From positions 1 to 25,444 of the IMG/VR virus record IMGVR_UViG_3300032308_000711: a DNA stretch of 25,444 nt. One strand, 5' to 3'. Made by a program: the position numbers and the translations under genes. Origin of the DNA: a virus. The notes beneath the pieces were generated by a model. The model saw only the letters and a list, made by a program, of their open reading frames with translations, had not been told where the DNA came from and searched no databases. Shown one piece after another: positions 5,133-19,463 of the stretch (within the stretch, counting starts at the first letter, position 1; each line of letters begins with the position of its first letter).

Positions 5133-8100
5133 ATGGCTGATGAAAACATAGTAACCAATATAGTTGCTAATGCAGATTTTTCAAATCTTATTGCAGATGT
5201 CAATAGGGTATCAGCCTCTTTATCTAAATTACAAGCACAAATAATTGCATCTGATGCAAAACTTGCAAATCAAGTTGCAGTTATGAACAGATCTTTTGCG
5301 GAAAACCTAAGAAGAACAGGTCAATTCTCTACGCACTTTGTAACACTAACATCTGATGTAGAGAAGTTTGGAAGAAATCTAGACACTGGAAAACTTAAAC
5401 TCCGTGATTATTTTAGAACATTTCAGGACCACACAAGAACATCTGGCGGATTAATTAGAGATCTTGCTAAGCAGCAAGTTGCTTTACAAAATGCAATCAT
5501 CCAGCCGTTGGGCAAAAATGCTCAAGGCTTAATGCAATACAATGTTCACATACCTCAAGGTCTAGATGCTGTAAAAAATAAGACTTCTCTTGCAAGACAA
5601 GAGCTTCAGATCATGAACAAGGTTATTCAAGATGGTGGAGTTCAATTAATTAACTGGGGTAAAAATACTCAGTGGGCAGGCCGCCAGCTAACAGTAGGAC
5701 TTACAGTTCCTTTAGTTGCACTAGGCGCAGCAGCAGCAAAATCATTTAGAGAAGCAGATGCAGAGCTTACAAGACTTACAAAGGTATACGGAGGAGTTGC
5801 TGCAAGCTCTTCCGCAGATCTTGCAAAAATTAGAAACGAAGTATCTTCAACTGCAAGAGAATTAGCAAAAGCATACGGTACATCATTTAAAGAAACAATT
5901 CAGCTTGCAGCGGATGTAGCAGCAACTGGAAAAACTGGAAATGATCTTATTAACTCCGTAAAAGAAACAACAAGACTTGCAGTTCTTGGTGAAGTTGATA
6001 GACAAGATGCAATGAAAGCAACGCTTGCAATTCAAACCGCATTTAAACAAAACACAGAACAGTTATCTGAATCGATTAACTTTCTTAACTCGGTTGAAAA
6101 CCAGACATCAACAAGCCTTGCAGATTTAATAGAAGCTATTCCAAAAGCAGGACCAGTAGTGCAGGGTCTTGGCGGAAGCGTAAAAGATTTAGCATTATAC
6201 ATGACGGCAATGAAAGAAGGCGGAATTAATGCATCAGAAGGCGCTAATGCTTTAAAGTCAGCACTTGCATCATTGATTAACCCAACAAAAGTTGCACAAG
6301 AACAATTTGCAGGTATGGGAATAAGTCTTAAAAATATTGTTAATGATAATGCTGGAGATTTAACTGGAATGATTCTTGAGCTACAGTCTGCTCTTGATGC
6401 TTTAAATCCACTTCAAAAGCAACAAGCAATAGAGCAACTATTTGGTAAATTTCAATTTGCAAGAATGAATGCTTTGTTTGAGAATTTAGGAAAACAAGGA
6501 AGCCAAACATTACAGGTAATGGATTTAATGAAGGCGAGCTCACAAGACTTAGCAAATGTAGCCAGCCGAGAATTAAGTCTTGTTACAGAGTCAGCTTCTG
6601 GTAAGTACAAGAGAGCCGTGGAGTCTTTAAAAGCAAGCCTTGCTGGCATTGGAGAAGAATTTCTTAAAGTACAAACATTTTTTATTAACGTTACAGATAG
6701 CGTGGTTAAATTTGTTAACAACCTACCTGGCCCAGTAAAAACAATTTTAACATTTGTTACAGGACTTACTGCGGTCATGGGACCAATTATTATGTTGACT
6801 GGTGTGCTTGCAAACTTCTTTGGATATATTATTAAGGGAGCCTCACACTTTAGAGCATTGTTTAAAGGTGGAGAAGGCTGGAAAATGCTTACTCCAGAAA
6901 TTCTTGCAGCACAAAAAGCGGGATCTCTTGTAGAAGCTACATTCTATAGCGATGCAAAAGCAGCAACAGTTCTTAAAAATGCAATAGATGGTCTGATTGC
7001 TGAATTTACAATACTTGAACAAAAAGCAAAATCAGGAGCAATATCGGTAGCACCAGCATTTACTACAATGGCTGGAAATCTTGTTGCTGGCGGCGGAAGA
7101 CAGGTAAATCCAAATCATCCACTATTAAGCCCAACAGATACACGCTCAATGTCACACATGAATCCTGTAGCTGGAATGACAGCAGAACAAAGAGCTGCTC
7201 AAACAATTTTTGGAGTTGTCCCAGGAGCCCCTAGAGTAAATCAAAAAATTAGCAACAATCCACAGATGTATATGTCTGGAGATCTCCCTGCGGTTGAAGG
7301 ACTAACTTCCATAAAGGGAGTGTCAACTGGAGTTGTTGCAGAAGAAGCAGCAAAGTGGCATGCAATGACTGGTGCATTAGCAATGCAATCAGAAACAGAA
7401 ATTAAAGCATTAAAGACAGAAGTTTCAAGAACTGGTTTAATTACTAGAGAACTTTCTGATTCTTATGAAGCACTACTTCCAACAATGACAAACTTAACTG
7501 CAAATGCTGCAAAACAATCTGCAGCAATTGTTGCAGAAATGCAAGCTGGTAAAATTCAGGTTGACCAAGCAAGAGCAAAAATTATGGCTCTTAATGCACA
7601 GGTTGAAAGCATGATAGCTGGCGCTGCAGTTGATATTGCAGGACAACAAGGAAGAAGTATTAATTTAACTTCCGTTCCACTGCTAAACCAACCAGTTGTA
7701 GACGGCGCTGGAAAATCAAATATGAAAGAGCTTTCTCGTCCAGGAAGAACAAGAGGTCTTCTTAATAGAATTGCTCAAGGTTTAGGTGTAAAAACATACG
7801 GTGCGCCATATAGCATAGCAACAACTATGCCAAAAAGAATGGCAACTGGCGGACCTGTTTATATGGCAGGCGGAGGCCCAAGTGGCACAGATACAGTTCC
7901 AGCATGGCTTACAGAGGGAGAATATGTATTAAGAAAATCCGCTGTAGATAAGCTTGGAGTACCACTATTAGACAAGCTAAATGATTTAGGAATTAGCTCA
8001 TCAAGCAAAACAGTTGGCGCTCATGCAAGCATGCCAATGGAGTATAGAGCACATGAATTGCTTTCAGATTTTGGTCCACATCTTCCAAAAGGAACTGAAT

Positions 8101-11100
8101 CTTTTGCAAAAGCTTTACCAGATCATAAGGTTGATGTTATAGATTCAAACAAGCTAGGACTTTATAGCGAAGAAAACCAAGCTCTTAGAATGGGCAAAAG
8201 AGGTCTTACAAAATCAGAGTTAATAAGAGCGCTTGCAGCTAGAAACTCAAAGCTGTTTAAATATCTTCCACCAATGGATAAGCAAACACAAATGTTATTT
8301 AAGAGAAGACTACTTGATGCTGCAAAGGGATTGCAGGATGGAAGAGTTTATCATGATGACACCCTTGCTCAGGTATACGACTGGGCAAGAAAAGATACAA
8401 TGCGTTCTTTGCCAGCTGAATTAAGACCTGGATTTAGACAAGCTATGATTTTAGCAAATACTCCTTCAGGTTTTAGACCACATAGCTTTGATCAGTACAC
8501 AGATGGCCAAAAACCTCCTACAATGAATGCAGCAGAAGCAAAGGCCGCTTCTGGGGATAAACCATTTATCTATACAAGCCCTACATCAGCTTCAGGTAAA
8601 AAAGGAAAAACAACAGCTGTTGTTACAGGATATGACGGGTCAAAACAATCAATAACAACTGGCGGAACAAAAATGTTTAAAAAATCCATAAGGGAAGAAG
8701 GAAGCAACTGGCTTGGAAGATTTATGCCAGTTGGAAGAAAGCGTGTTTCTACAGACTACAATAGCGCAATGCTTACTAAGAAGTGGAGAAGAGGCTACGC
8801 AACTGGCGGATATGTTGGTAAGGGTGGGCCACAAGGATATGCTAATGGAGGAATGGTTCTTGATGGTTATGCAGACGGCGGGCCAGTTAAAGGATATGCA
8901 GGCGGAGGATTAGTCGCAGGATTATTAGCTGCAATGGGAATTCCAATTCTTGGAAATATGCTGGGAAATAAAGTTGGCGGAACTCCAGGAGCTGCAATAT
9001 CTAACGTATCAAATATACTTCCATTCCTACTGCCAATGGGTGCAATGAGTGGAATGACAAGAGGCATAACTAGCAAACTACCACAAGGTGCAACATCTAC
9101 AGTTAAGCCATTAGCTCAGACATCAGGAAACCTTATGGCAATGGGCAAGGCTGGATCATCAGCTGGCGCAGTTATGTCAAAGCTCGGCCCAATATTTGGA
9201 AGAGTTCTTGCTTCTGTCACACCTCTAGGATTAGCTATAACTGGAGTTACAACTGCATTAACAGTTGGATATACTGCATGGAAAAAGCATCAAGAAAATT
9301 TAAAGCTAAATGCATTAGGTTTTGGCCTTACAGCAGAAGCGGCACAAAAAGCTGGACTTAAATACACAGACTATAATCAAAAAATTAAAGATAGCATTCA
9401 AAGATCAAAAGACTTAATGGAGGCAAACAAGCTTGCATACGAAAGTATGACACAGGCTGGTATTCCAATTAAGATGACTATTACTGAATATAAAAAATTA
9501 AAAGATGAAGTTAAGGGTGCATTCTCTGAGCAAATCAAATTAATTAATTCAACAAAGAAAGCTGAGTTAGGCGATGTTGCTGTAAGATTAAAAACACAAC
9601 TAATGGCTGCTGGAATGTCTGCAGAGGATGCAACTAAGAAAATTTATGCAATGATGTCTCTTTCAAAAAATGCAGGAATGGCTGCAGCATCAACAGTTGG
9701 AAACCAAGATTTTAATGCTATAACAGATGCTAAAACGGCAGCAGGAGGCTCTCTTAAGTCATTTGATACAGCAGCAAGGCTAGGAGAAGCTCAAGCGCAA
9801 GCCGCTGCATTAAACACAGCACTAACTGCAATAGATGCTGGCGTAGACGAGATTGTTAGAAAAAGCGAAGAAGCCGCAAGAAAAGATAAAACCAATAAAA
9901 CTGAAGCTATAAGTAAAATTCAAGCAGAAATTAAGATGATGGATTATTTAAATGCTAGCCAGTTTAGACAAACTAAGCTTACAAGAGATACCATTAATGA
10001 AATGGCAAAAGCAAATCCAGCAATTAAAGAGCTTGCAAGTACATCAGATACAGTTGTTAGTGTATGGCAAAAGCTTAGATTGCAGGCAATGGGTCTTGCT
10101 GGAGATCTTTCAAAATTAAATGCAGAGCAAACTGCAGCACTCTACAACATTGGTAATATTATAAGTGAAAAGGTTATTGCTGCTAATAAAGGCAAGGGTG
10201 GATTGCTTGAACAGGAATATAAAGATTTAGGTGCTCTTAAAAAACAAAGAGATGACCTTGCAAAGAAGGCCGCTGGACAAAGTGTACAGGCTCAAATAGA
10301 TTCTAAGAAGAGACTAAAAGAGCTTCAAGATCAAATTGATAAAACAAATAAGCTTGCTGACGCAAGAATAAAAGCATTAAACGCCGCAAAAGAAGATGCA
10401 GATCTTAATCGTGAAATGGAATCTGCAAGACTTGAACTTCAATTTGCAGAGTCTACAGGGAATACAGCACAAGCAGCACAGGCTAGATTAAGATATGAAG
10501 GCGCTGTTAACAACATACAGAATCTTGGGCAAACTAGAGCAATTCAAGCTGCGGCAGATAAAGCAAATGCAGGACCACTTGCAGAAATTAAAAAAATACA
10601 AAGTGCTAATGAAAAGCTTGCAGATGCTGCAGCACTTGCAGGAACAGGCCTAGCTTCGCTTGATAAGAAGATTGCAGGACTAATTGGAACAATTGATGGT
10701 TTAAATAATGCTCAATCAGCATATCAATTAAACTTAGCTAAATGGAAAACAGAAAACCCTGGCATGACAGAAACAGATTTCTTAAAAACAGAATTAGGAA
10801 AGTACTTATCTGCAGGTTTGGTTGCTCCAACAAAAGCTGCAGGTGCAAATCTTCCAGCAGCAAACGGTGCGTATCCAGGAAAAGGTGGCTGGGTTCCAGC
10901 AACAACACCAGGTGCGTCTGCAGCTGCAATGTCAAGCAAGGCATTTACAACAGACACATTTATTGTTGGAGATAAAAACTTAGCAACAGTATTAGATAAA
11001 GCATTTAATGGAGGAGGCAAGCTTCCAGGAACACCAACAACAATTCCAAAAACCCCAGCAGCTGGACCATATGGAGGAGGAACTTATGTAAGTTTATCTC

Positions 11101-11582
11101 AATTGCAAAAGTCTGGTGCACAGAAAAAGTTTGCTGGACCACGTGACCGTACTGGCACATATGTCGGGTCTACATTTACAGATGAAAAAGGACAAAAGTG
11201 GAAGGTTACAGCAGATGCAGGTTATGCAGGATTTGCAGTAACTAAAGCTGGTAAGGGATTAATGAATGTTGATCCAAACAAGCCTGTAATTGTTGGTGAC
11301 ATGGGCCCAGAATTATTGTATAATAATATGGTTATTCCAAATCTTTCCAGTATTCCATTTGCAAGCCCAAGCTTTAATATTCCTGCAGGAGCAAAGGCAT
11401 TAACTGAACTACTTCCAGGATCCTCGAGCAGCGAATCAACAATTGTCTATCAGACATTTAATCAGGCTCCAGGTGAAGATGCAGATGCATTTATTAGAAA
11501 AGTTACACAAGCAACTGTTCAAGCGATTGGAAAAGATGCTAAATTAATTAAATCACAGTCTGGCGAAAGTAGGTTAATCTAA
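5133..11582 (+). CDS. Tape measure protein
   Basis: A 2149-residue protein, by far the longest gene here, that sets tail length and may leave the tail during DNA injection. Residues 1-170 are helical. A typical tape-measure core follows (NWGKNTQWAGRQLTVGLTVP near 180, then AGPVVQGLGGSVKDLALYMT near 345). Hydrophobic stretches lie near 530-570, 1250-1300 and 1365-1390. The motif GTDTVPAWLTEGEYVLRKSA begins at 918 and VGDMGPELLYNN lies near 2055; both recur in tape measure proteins. Residues 969-1215 form an unfamiliar polar domain, followed by four GYAxGGxV repeats (about 1221-1258). Coiled coil is likely at about 1690-1800. AAGGAG lies 13 bases before ATG 5133, a rather long spacing. At about 0.15 nm per residue the tail could approach 320 nm, an upper limit if inserted domains do not count. 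Confidence 0.93.
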   Translation: MADENIVTNIVANADFSNLIADVNRVSASLSKLQAQIIASDAKLANQVAVMNRSFAENLRRTGQFSTHFVTLTSDVEKFGRNLDTGKLKLRDYFRTFQDHTRTSGGLIRDLAKQQVALQNAIIQPLGKNAQGLMQYNVHIPQGLDAVKNKTSLARQELQIMNKVIQDGGVQLINWGKNTQWAGRQLTVGLTVPLVALGAAAAKSFREADAELTRLTKVYGGVAASSSADLAKIRNEVSSTARELAKAYGTSFKETIQLAADVAATGKTGNDLINSVKETTRLAVLGEVDRQDAMKATLAIQTAFKQNTEQLSESINFLNSVENQTSTSLADLIEAIPKAGPVVQGLGGSVKDLALYMTAMKEGGINASEGANALKSALASLINPTKVAQEQFAGMGISLKNIVNDNAGDLTGMILELQSALDALNPLQKQQAIEQLFGKFQFARMNALFENLGKQGSQTLQVMDLMKASSQDLANVASRELSLVTESASGKYKRAVESLKASLAGIGEEFLKVQTFFINVTDSVVKFVNNLPGPVKTILTFVTGLTAVMGPIIMLTGVLANFFGYIIKGASHFRALFKGGEGWKMLTPEILAAQKAGSLVEATFYSDAKAATVLKNAIDGLIAEFTILEQKAKSGAISVAPAFTTMAGNLVAGGGRQVNPNHPLLSPTDTRSMSHMNPVAGMTAEQRAAQTIFGVVPGAPRVNQKISNNPQMYMSGDLPAVEGLTSIKGVSTGVVAEEAAKWHAMTGALAMQSETEIKALKTEVSRTGLITRELSDSYEALLPTMTNLTANAAKQSAAIVAEMQAGKIQVDQARAKIMALNAQVESMIAGAAVDIAGQQGRSINLTSVPLLNQPVVDGAGKSNMKELSRPGRTRGLLNRIAQGLGVKTYGAPYSIATTMPKRMATGGPVYMAGGGPSGTDTVPAWLTEGEYVLRKSAVDKLGVPLLDKLNDLGISSSSKTVGAHASMPMEYRAHELLSDFGPHLPKGTESFAKALPDHKVDVIDSNKLGLYSEENQALRMGKRGLTKSELIRALAARNSKLFKYLPPMDKQTQMLFKRRLLDAAKGLQDGRVYHDDTLAQVYDWARKDTMRSLPAELRPGFRQAMILANTPSGFRPHSFDQYTDGQKPPTMNAAEAKAASGDKPFIYTSPTSASGKKGKTTAVVTGYDGSKQSITTGGTKMFKKSIREEGSNWLGRFMPVGRKRVSTDYNSAMLTKKWRRGYATGGYVGKGGPQGYANGGMVLDGYADGGPVKGYAGGGLVAGLLAAMGIPILGNMLGNKVGGTPGAAISNVSNILPFLLPMGAMSGMTRGITSKLPQGATSTVKPLAQTSGNLMAMGKAGSSAGAVMSKLGPIFGRVLASVTPLGLAITGVTTALTVGYTAWKKHQENLKLNALGFGLTAEAAQKAGLKYTDYNQKIKDSIQRSKDLMEANKLAYESMTQAGIPIKMTITEYKKLKDEVKGAFSEQIKLINSTKKAELGDVAVRLKTQLMAAGMSAEDATKKIYAMMSLSKNAGMAAASTVGNQDFNAITDAKTAAGGSLKSFDTAARLGEAQAQAAALNTALTAIDAGVDEIVRKSEEAARKDKTNKTEAISKIQAEIKMMDYLNASQFRQTKLTRDTINEMAKANPAIKELASTSDTVVSVWQKLRLQAMGLAGDLSKLNAEQTAALYNIGNIISEKVIAANKGKGGLLEQEYKDLGALKKQRDDLAKKAAGQSVQAQIDSKKRLKELQDQIDKTNKLADARIKALNAAKEDADLNREMESARLELQFAESTGNTAQAAQARLRYEGAVNNIQNLGQTRAIQAAADKANAGPLAEIKKIQSANEKLADAAALAGTGLASLDKKIAGLIGTIDGLNNAQSAYQLNLAKWKTENPGMTETDFLKTELGKYLSAGLVAPTKAAGANLPAANGAYPGKGGWVPATTPGASAAAMSSKAFTTDTFIVGDKNLATVLDKAFNGGGKLPGTPTTIPKTPAAGPYGGGTYVSLSQLQKSGAQKKFAGPRDRTGTYVGSTFTDEKGQKWKVTADAGYAGFAVTKAGKGLMNVDPNKPVIVGDMGPELLYNNMVIPNLSSIPFASPSFNIPAGAKALTELLPGSSSSESTIVYQTFNQAPGEDADAFIRKVTQATVQAIGKDAKLIKSQSGESRLI

Positions 11583-16605: not shown

Positions 16606-19463
16606 TGAGAGACCCAGGTTTAGATGGAGTAGATAGATCAAATTCTGCTGATTTACAAAAAGATGCCTCAGGAATTGCTACTGCTAATGCACTTTCATCT
16701 AAAGACTCATATACTATAACAATAGAAAAACTTCCAGTAAAGCTTGCAGGTAAATATAATTTTGTTTTTCAGTATTATTATGTAAATCCAGATGAAACAC
16801 AATCAACTCCAGTCCTTGGACCACCGTCTGCTACATATACAATAGAGCTAGAAATTCCGTGTATCGCTACAGCACCTACTAATGTTACAACCGCAGGTGG
16901 ATTTTATTCTTATCAAGTTAAATGGGACATGCCAACATTTGCAAGTTATGCAGATACAATTGTTTATGAAAGCAATACAAATTCTTTTTCACCATCATCA
17001 AAAGTTGTTTACGTTGGAACATCTAACCAATGCAATATATTAACATCAGATCTGCTTCCTAAGTACGTTTATGTAGTGCACAGAGACATGTTTAGACAAA
17101 GTTGTATTGCAGGATTTGTTGCAGGACCAATTGTTATTAAAGATCCCATTACTGTAGATGCTAATCCACCAACAAATGATTTTACAGTAGGGACAGCAAC
17201 TGTTCAAGATGATCCAGACGGATTGTTTACTTTTAATAAAAAGGTTTTATTTAACTGGACAGCTAACACAGACGAGTCAACCTACGGATATCAGATAAGA
17301 TTTAGAAGAGTAGGTACAACTGATTATACCTACATGTCAGTTCCTGGACGTACAACAACGTCTACTTATTTATATGGAGTAAAGGCGGGGCAGACATATG
17401 AAATTGGTGTAAGCACATACGATCAATTTGGCAATACAAACGTTTCAGACTGGAAGAGCTATCCAAATATTGTAATACCAGCAAGCACATCGTTGGCAGC
17501 AGATGTTGCAATCACGGCGGGTGACATGAAAATGGGTTACGGTATTGGCGGAGATAATGCTAATAAAGGGCTTTACTTAGGTCCAGAAAATTACTGGTAC
17601 ATTCAGGGCAATACTACTGCTTCATCGGCAGCAAGACTTTCTGTTGGCGGAACAAATGACAAGTTGTTATGGGACGGAACAAATTTGTCAGTAACAGGTA
17701 ACCTAACAGCAAGAGCTGGATCTTTTACTGGAAACATATTGCTAGCTTCAACTAACGCATCTATATATAATGGAACAATCAACTCAGCTGGCAACCTAAC
17801 TGGAAATGGATTTGCTTTAAATGCAACGGGCTTAAAGGTTGCAAATGGAACTAACTCAATAACACTAGATGCTGCAAATGGTCAGATAACTGCAAATGCT
17901 GGAAATATTGCAGGGTGGCAATTAACAACAAACGGATTTAGCAATAATAATGCAAGACTAAATAGTTTAACGGGCTCACTTGAATTGGGTGGAGCAAACA
18001 CAGATGACATTGTTCGTCTTGATGCAAATGATGCAAATTTTAGAATGTGGATCGGAAAAAATTCATCCGCAACAGCACCATTTAAAGTTAGCAAATCTGG
18101 AGTTCTCACAGCTTCTGGGGCCATGATAACTGGTAACTCTTCCTTTGCTGGAACTTTAACTGTTGGCACACAGCTTTCAGATGGAACAACAATTGATACT
18201 GTTAAGCAAAATGCATTGCAGGGAATAACCGATGCTGGCGCCGCAGCTGGACAAGCGGCACAAGCAAAAGCCAGAGGTGACGAAGCTTATAATAAAGCCA
18301 TAGAGGCTGGGCAAACTGCAACAGCTGCTTCAGAAGCTGCGACTGCAGCAGCAAATGCTGCTGCATTAAAAATGGCAGCGGCAGATATTAATACGGTTTT
18401 AGATTTAAACACGACAGTAATAAATGGAAGCAGAATAACAACTGGAACAATTGATGTTGCTAGATTAAATATTACTGGTGGTACAGCAGGATTTAATGGA
18501 TTTGTTGTAGATGGAAATGGTATTCGGGCAACAAGCGGAGGAAGCCAAACATTAAATATTTCTTCAAATGGAACTATTTCTTTAGGAGATACTACAAATG
18601 GATGGACAGTAGACAATCAATACATAACATCTAGAAGCTACTACACAACAGGATATACACCAGTAAAATTAGATGGATGGAATGGAACAATTGAAGGTGG
18701 AAGAATTACTGCTTCAAAGTTTGAAGCCAACACTATTACTGGTGGAACTATAACTGGAACTAAAATTCAGACAAGTACTTCTGGCAACAGAGTTGAATTA
18801 GTGGACGCAACAACAGATTCTTTAAGAGTTGTTTATGGTGGTACTGTTAGAGGACAGCTTTTAGCCGCAGCATCTTCAGGAATATTAATGCACTGGGGCG
18901 CAACAGCTAACGCAAATGCTACAACATATGGCCTTATTTTACTTAATCAAAACGCTGCAACTATTGCGGCCGATAGCAATAACTATTTAACTGTTACAAC
19001 TACAAACACCACTCTGTCTGGAGCAATGGATTTTGTAAACGGAACAAGTACTTTTAGCTCTGGTTACAATACATTTTTTCAAAAAACCACAACGGGAGCG
19101 GCTACCCCGTCCACAACCACATCTGGAGCAAATGCGTGGCTAAACTCAAGTACAGGACAATTAGCAAGATCTACATCTTCAAGAAGATATAAAACAAATA
19201 TTCAAGATATAGAGTTTACAGACACTCAGCTTATGTTGTTAAGGCCAGTTAAGTTTCAGGGTATAGCTGATATGGAGTCTGGCGATGAAGCATATCGTGT
19301 AGGGTTAATTGCAGAAGAGGTAGCAGCAATTGAAGGCCTTGAAGATATAGTTGAATATAATAATGATGGGACCCCAGAAAACATTAATTATAATAGTCTT
19401 TCTCCAATACTAATAAGTGTATTAAAAAGAATATTAAATAGGCTTGACGCCGCTGGAATTTAA
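16605..19463 (+). CDS. Large tail fibre with FN3 modules and C-terminal S74 chaperone domain
   Basis: A 952-residue receptor-binding type protein coupled to the preceding fibre by TAATG. Two fibronectin-III-like modules are visible at about 88-180 and 187-293 (FTFNKKVLFNWTANTDES, YGVKAGQTYEIGVSTYD). Repetitive glycine/asparagine/threonine beta structure covers about 300-540 and 592-850, broken by an alanine-rich helix at about 540-592 that probably makes a trimeric coiled coil. Residues 858-952 are a Peptidase_S74 intramolecular chaperone: S858-S-R-R-Y-K863-T-N-I, then YRVGLIAEEVAAIEG and NYNSLSPILISVLKRIL. In this family the domain helps the fibre trimerise and then cuts itself off at the serine, with the nearby lysine as partner. 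Self-cleavage here is inferred from motif conservation. Confidence 0.85.
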   Translation: MRDPGLDGVDRSNSADLQKDASGIATANALSSKDSYTITIEKLPVKLAGKYNFVFQYYYVNPDETQSTPVLGPPSATYTIELEIPCIATAPTNVTTAGGFYSYQVKWDMPTFASYADTIVYESNTNSFSPSSKVVYVGTSNQCNILTSDLLPKYVYVVHRDMFRQSCIAGFVAGPIVIKDPITVDANPPTNDFTVGTATVQDDPDGLFTFNKKVLFNWTANTDESTYGYQIRFRRVGTTDYTYMSVPGRTTTSTYLYGVKAGQTYEIGVSTYDQFGNTNVSDWKSYPNIVIPASTSLAADVAITAGDMKMGYGIGGDNANKGLYLGPENYWYIQGNTTASSAARLSVGGTNDKLLWDGTNLSVTGNLTARAGSFTGNILLASTNASIYNGTINSAGNLTGNGFALNATGLKVANGTNSITLDAANGQITANAGNIAGWQLTTNGFSNNNARLNSLTGSLELGGANTDDIVRLDANDANFRMWIGKNSSATAPFKVSKSGVLTASGAMITGNSSFAGTLTVGTQLSDGTTIDTVKQNALQGITDAGAAAGQAAQAKARGDEAYNKAIEAGQTATAASEAATAAANAAALKMAAADINTVLDLNTTVINGSRITTGTIDVARLNITGGTAGFNGFVVDGNGIRATSGGSQTLNISSNGTISLGDTTNGWTVDNQYITSRSYYTTGYTPVKLDGWNGTIEGGRITASKFEANTITGGTITGTKIQTSTSGNRVELVDATTDSLRVVYGGTVRGQLLAAASSGILMHWGATANANATTYGLILLNQNAATIAADSNNYLTVTTTNTTLSGAMDFVNGTSTFSSGYNTFFQKTTTGAATPSTTTSGANAWLNSSTGQLARSTSSRRYKTNIQDIEFTDTQLMLLRPVKFQGIADMESGDEAYRVGLIAEEVAAIEGLEDIVEYNNDGTPENINYNSLSPILISVLKRILNRLDAAGI

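Follow-up and report, generated by a model that had tools for sequence, protein, structure and literature searches.

The DNA analysed here (the window) is the IMG/VR virus record IMGVR_UViG_3300032308_000711, a stretch of 25 kb (25,444 nucleotides) with a tail gene cluster, whose largest gene is a single intact open reading frame (ORF) for a tape measure protein (TMP) of 2149 residues that matches the tape measure profiles given in Table 1. An earlier note on this DNA had placed an unexplained domain at positions 8037–8779, corresponding to TMP residues 969–1215, between the motif GTDTVPAWLTEGEYV (residues 918–932) and a series of GYAxGG repeats that starts at about residue 1221, and both the placement and the two flanking motifs proved correct; on the minus strand opposite the segment there is no ORF of 80 residues or more. 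We describe this segment, hereafter type A, as one of several occupants of a slot in the TMP whose content is exchangeable, and we give about an even chance to its being a module of host-directed cargo, whose delivery and activity we infer. All of the evidence comes from computation on metagenomic contigs.

A conserved domain, predicted to be folded, within the tape measure protein

With 10 aligned sequences, AlphaFold2 predicted residues 954–1222 as a compact alpha/beta domain of 8 strands and 12 helices (predicted local distance difference test, pLDDT, 85.3; predicted template modelling score, pTM, 0.77), in which pLDDT falls below 50 only at model residues 242–250, near the C-terminus. The mixed alpha/beta character that had been read from the sequence is thus borne out by the model, in which the segment is neither coiled nor disordered, and the limits of the domain are improved to residues 954–1222, with a core at about residues 960–1185. 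The description of the domain as embedded and unexplained also stands. The type A module found no match among Pfam, PHROG and PDB sequences and its model found no whole-domain match in Foldseek searches of the PDB and of viral models. The only resemblance listed by VIA extends over 51 residues and is one of topology, between the C-terminal lobe and the C-terminal domain of ribosome hibernation promoting factor (HPF; 3lyv_B; root-mean-square deviation, rmsd, 2.4; 24% identity). Its Z of 6.0 is a value of a size that the tool describes as common, and the lobe did not match the Pfam family of the HPF/S30AE C-terminal domain (PF16321). No relatives of type A were found in named phages or bacterial genomes, and it is possibly a new domain family.

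Ratios of nonsynonymous to synonymous substitution (dN/dS) within the segment were 0.09 and 0.08 in two close pairs (L085/L086 and L013/L014, respectively), which indicates that purifying selection acts on the module in these pairs; values for distant pairs are distorted by saturated synonymous sites. Across 10 homologues, with identity to the window as low as 38%, 29 columns are invariant, and 10 of the 29 are polar or charged (H11, S13, E61, N62, R66, R70, E76, R79, H121 and D122 in model numbering; H11, E61, R66, R70, H121 and D122 are H964, E1014, R1019, R1023, H1074 and D1075 of the TMP), a set that would fit a binding or active site. Because of the purifying selection in close pairs and the 29 invariant columns, we regard the domain as more than a product of chance.

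Replacement of whole modules at one site

When the part of the TMP immediately upstream of the domain was used for a scan, 80 loci were obtained, most of whose TMPs are 57–86% identical to that of the window across the N-terminal 940 residues. Many of them match the window again from about residue 1230–1257 on, and the intervening part, of 250–1100 residues, is often unrelated. At the DNA level the exchange has sharp borders: L034 and L038 have a nucleotide identity of 84–95% up to residue 939, 32–46% over residues 969–1194 and 84–90% directly after; L020/L044 follow the same pattern, and L007/L013, both with divergent type A modules, are 34–57% identical over residues 969–1194. Replacement is also visible at the protein level. 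Even where the module is retained it can follow a course of its own, as in the window and L003 (55% identity in the module vs 94% and 81% in the flanks) or in L007 and L086, whose domains are 69% identical and whose C-terminal parts are 29% identical. The alignment with relatives therefore shows a module that is missing or replaced as a unit, and not ordinary tape measure sequence common to all of them. Type A itself comprises 10 unique segments, two of whose carriers (L085 and L086) have a different C-terminal half of the TMP.

With the N-terminal part of the TMP, a broader scan matched at least 587 loci; 202 anchored TMPs contained 120 unique slot segments. The carriers are a large group of environmental phages with TMPs related to those of Streptomyces siphophages. 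Every one of the 202 sampled TMPs has a module at the first position. Profile comparison of sequences sorts these first-position modules into six or more families between which it gives no link (A, B, C/E, D, F/H and G, with rarer ones besides), folds having been predicted for the type A and ADP-ribosyltransferase (ART) modules only. Type A reached a probability of at most 3.6% with any other family. Single-linkage clustering merged most of the modules, partly via shared linkers at the segment start, and was replaced by the profile comparison. Pfam, PHROG and NCBIfam gave no useful match for the other slot modules. In the homologous TMPs of Streptomyces phages Angela and Tomas about 530 residues are absent at the slot, a gap whose C-terminal anchors are weak (about 50% probability) and whose order and spacing agree.

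The slot, which ranges from about 250 to 1100 residues, lies between two hydrophobic segments and has repeated Gly-Gly linker motifs at its borders, and whole modules appear to be swapped between such linkers. That of the window holds one module only; in relatives, two to four stand in tandem, one of them an ART.

ADP-ribosyltransferases and other occupants of the slot

In several TMPs the module behind the first-position one has the signature of an arginine-type ART. Its model (pLDDT 77.8) retrieved ARTs as all of the top five Foldseek matches, the best being Vis and Certhrax (probability 1.00, E 2.4e-5 to 7e-4), and all of the rows listed by VIA were likewise ARTs (Z 9.9, rmsd 2.7–3.2 over 127–132 residues). 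Scanning with this module, an example of which lies at L065:9747–10292, gave 48 loci, all within large ORFs, 46 of which contain the TMP signature motif, while the remaining two are cut short or do not include that stretch. The catalytic residues are almost fully retained (Arg in 48/48, Ser-x-Ser in 46/47 and Glu-x-Glu in 47/47), so that by motifs and predicted fold the second module of these 48 related TMP loci qualifies as an ART. It had no match in Pfam, PHROGs or named phages. In L040 the ART module begins near residue 1345, between the blocks equivalent to window residues 940 and 1178, and for that reason we place it in the same slot as type A. The type A module does not show this motif series: its invariant residues, in the order S13, E61, R66, R70, E76, R79 and H121, do not form Arg, Ser-x-Ser and Glu-x-Glu. 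The fold searches of its model, in which whole-domain matches are absent, list no ART.

Further occupants were noticed. Motifs resembling a kinase core (GGxY..VFVKP, GDxDLxxxN and DVG) were seen by eye in a slot module of L053, L055, L057, L059, L062–L064, L066, L185, L207 and L224; a profile of it matched no solved kinase in the PDB. Both ART and kinase-like modules are optional across the sampled TMPs. A PARP-like module at L033:9489–9947, with weak similarity to DUF3990 (E=0.017), is possibly another ART-like occupant. A module that appears helical by eye, GNVLKG...WGVNSLSIEMA, recurs in many TMPs (L021, L023, L026, L028, L038, L053 and others), where it is the last one ahead of the second hydrophobic segment.

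Remaining features of the tape measure protein and the window

The features of the TMP are collected in Table 1. Among named phages, Streptomyces phages of the Stanwilliamsviridae come closest, at about 35% identity over residues 4–626 only, and residues 51–598 align with the TMP of Streptomyces phage Angela; at the DNA level the window had no match among named phages. At the second hydrophobic segment, runs of the Gly/Ala/Ser-xxx type are enriched family-wide (mean 6.6 vs 5.0 in shuffled sequences), and the run of 5 in the TMP of the window is not above its shuffles.

Table 1. Features of the tape measure gene in the window
Feature	Positions	Strand	Basis or remark
TMP gene, 2149 residues, host of the module	5133..11582	+	Single intact ORF; Pfam PhageMin_Tail E=1.3e-29, PHROG 10030 (tape measure) E=2.8e-123
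N-terminal part, conserved, residues 1–949	5133..7980	+	57–86% identity for the majority of full-length relatives other than those of type A
First hydrophobic, membrane-like segment, residues 535–567	6735..6833	+	Kyte-Doolittle >1.6; position constant in all full-length TMPs listed
Entry motif GTDTVPAWLTEGEYV, residues 918–932, upstream border of the slot	7884..7928	+	Nucleotide identity between relatives drops directly downstream
Type A module, residues 954–1222 (core about 8010–8687)	7992..8798	+	AlphaFold2 pLDDT 85.3; relatives have unrelated modules in its place
C-terminal lobe of the type A module, with a weak likeness to the HPF C-terminal domain (lead only)	8463..8675	+	VIA Z 6.0; Pfam gave no confirmation
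GYAxGG(x)V repeat linker, residues 1221–1259, downstream border of the slot	8793..8909	+	In relatives, modules are set apart by Gly-Gly linkers of a similar kind
Second hydrophobic segment, residues 1255–1278	8895..8966	+	Hydrophobicity; glycine-zipper runs counted
C-terminal part, residues 1279–2149	8967..11579	+	64% identity to L016 despite an unrelated module between

A second, smaller replaced stretch lies near the C-terminus of the TMP (window 10833–11432, residues about 1901–2100), where L002 is 60–63% identical to the window as against 99–100% elsewhere. L003, although more distant, is similar to the window there. In bacterial genome bins the TMP family had one match only, at 42% identity, on a 110-kb contig of a cyanobacterial bin (L146), which is probably a misbinned phage. 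Elsewhere in the window, at 18870–19463, SSRRYKTNIQDIE was seen by eye near the end of a 952-residue tail protein, a pattern of the kind known in tail proteins with an intramolecular chaperone of the peptidase S74 type.

Discussion

In general, as summarised in PMC13277306, TMPs occupy the inside of the tail tube and at infection pass out of it into the membrane of the host. A module inserted in such a protein would be threaded with it through the tail tube, would leave the virion before the DNA and would then enter or cross the host membrane; having travelled unfolded, it might refold on the cytosolic side after release and, at an early time, bind a host target or act on it through some enzymatic activity. 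The position of the slot between two hydrophobic segments fits a membrane-crossing step. The activity of ARTs requires NAD+, so that they can be of use only in a place that contains it; the slot would then have to arrive in the cytosol of the host, or its ART would have to work in the producing cell ahead of assembly. For cargo in the slot, the cytosol is thus a plausible place of action. The suggestion that the domain is released into the host as cargo has gained indirect support from the finding of an ART with conserved catalytic residues in the slot of relatives, with injection and activity as its putative parts. Several points weigh against cargo. A folded domain of 27 kDa is unlikely to fit in the tail lumen and would have to be carried there in unfolded form; its entry into the cytosol is a deduction from TMP biology and from the need of ARTs for NAD+; the ARTs of relatives are second modules behind the first-position one, so that they bear on type A by position; type A occurs only on metagenomic contigs and is carried by no named phage; and none of the known families and enzyme folds searched matches the module of the window. 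Because the evidence for that module is positional, we do not go beyond an even chance for it. A wider proposal, which we put forward tentatively and rate somewhat below that, is that in this phage group the TMP serves as a polymorphic carrier of effectors. Many environmental phages would use its dedicated slot to swap modules directed at the host (ARTs, perhaps kinase-like enzymes, and a number of unknown folds) and would deliver them via the tail and not the capsid; type A would then be an effector family not described before, and its fold one not seen before.

The strongest competitor, which we consider rather unlikely, would make the domain a determinant of host-entry specificity, one that docks after ejection onto a protein of the host envelope or inner membrane needed for DNA entry, varies because such host factors vary and never serves as cytosolic cargo. 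Such a role would suit a first-position module that is present in all 202 anchored TMPs, whereas the ART and kinase-like modules are optional, that is located between two hydrophobic segments and that diverges faster than its flanks, as between the window and L003; moreover, the TMP of HK97 depends on an inner-membrane protein of its host, as cited in PMC13277306. It leaves unexplained, however, why modules that require NAD+ should occupy the slot, and the complete swap for unrelated sequences exceeds what receptor tuning needs. Clearly less probable is a structural or tail-tip domain, used for length adjustment, chaperone binding or as a plug, and exchanged neutrally by mosaic recombination: TMPs tolerate length variation, phages are mosaic and the linkers are common TMP motifs (they give PHROG matches near the ends of other TMP profiles), but neutral exchange is at odds with purifying selection, with ten invariant polar residues and with an ART occupant whose catalytic residues are intact, and a range of about 250–1100 residues would be intolerable in a length ruler unless the slot lay outside the ruler.

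The other proposal of the earlier note, an enzyme acting on the cell envelope, has the precedent of an actinophage TMP, that of mycobacteriophage TM4 (PMC1796659), in favor of a peptidoglycan hydrolase or similar activity. It found no support here, since the Pfam, PHROG, PDB-sequence and fold searches of the module returned no hydrolase family, and we hold it to be very improbable. An intein, the insertion of a homing endonuclease or the product of a diversity-generating retroelement, in turn, would account for an in-frame insertion of variable content at a single site, but can be given hardly any credence: the Pfam and PHROG searches gave no intein, HNH or reverse-transcriptase family in the segment (the best HNH match, in a homologue, had E=0.1), Pfam gave no match in it at E up to 1, the HINT splicing domain included, and the variants are whole unrelated sequences instead of point variation.

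Comparison with known systems

Virion-borne enzymes that modify the host are known mainly from phage heads. If the preferred reading of type A and its companions as host-directed cargo is true, the swappable slot of the tail TMP would add a second route of delivery, one used by environmental phages of an abundant group, and would offer a large and so far unexplored stock of domains for host takeover or counter-defence; it also predicts that host proteins are modified by the ART modules as soon as infection begins. A search of open-access literature gave no previous description of an ART, or of polymorphic cargo modules, within the TMP of a phage. The head-packaged ARTs of phages, often fused to MuF, such as T4 Alt and the MuF-VIP2 fusions, and the polyvalent proteins (PMC5512222, PMC9503650, PMC7302621) would resemble the present case, as proposed here, in being virion-borne host-modifying domains, ART and kinase-like folds included, subject to modular exchange. 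Those reports, however, concern packaging linked to the head, the portal or MuF, whereas the carrier here is the tail tape measure; the term "tape measure" does not occur in PMC5512222, nor does "tape measure protein" in PMC9503650.

Among tape measures, that of mycobacteriophage TM4 carries peptidoglycan-hydrolase motifs that are dispensable for viability and aid infection in some host states (Piuri and Hatfull, PMC1796659). As in TM4, an accessory functional motif lies within the TMP of siphophages related to those of actinobacteria, but the TM4 motifs are short, wall-degrading and related to host proteins, while the slot described here holds 250–1100 residues of unrelated folded modules, some of them ART-like and none matching a wall enzyme. 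The type VI secretion system effector Tde1 needs a glycine zipper for the entry of its toxin domain into target cells, a feature that its authors link to TMPs (PMC10240207). A glycine-zipper or hydrophobic segment stands beside the module here as it does beside the toxin domain of Tde1; Tde1, however, is a secretion system effector, and the zipper is enriched across the present family and not above chance in the window.

There is also a likeness in design to Tme (PMC11126660) and Sle1 (PMC13277306), effectors of contractile injection systems that are related to tape measures, bear diverse effector domains and occur in Actinobacteria: in both cases a tape-measure-like carrier has exchangeable, structurally diverse domains. 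Tme and Sle1 belong to host-encoded contractile particles and have the effector at the C-terminus, whereas the carrier in the present case is the TMP with which the phage itself sets its tail length, and its modules lie internally (residues 954–1222 of 2149 in the window, with no Pfam match to DUF4157 in the TMP itself). Should the cargo reading hold, phage tape measures would be tied directly to these tape-measure-like effectors of contractile injection systems.

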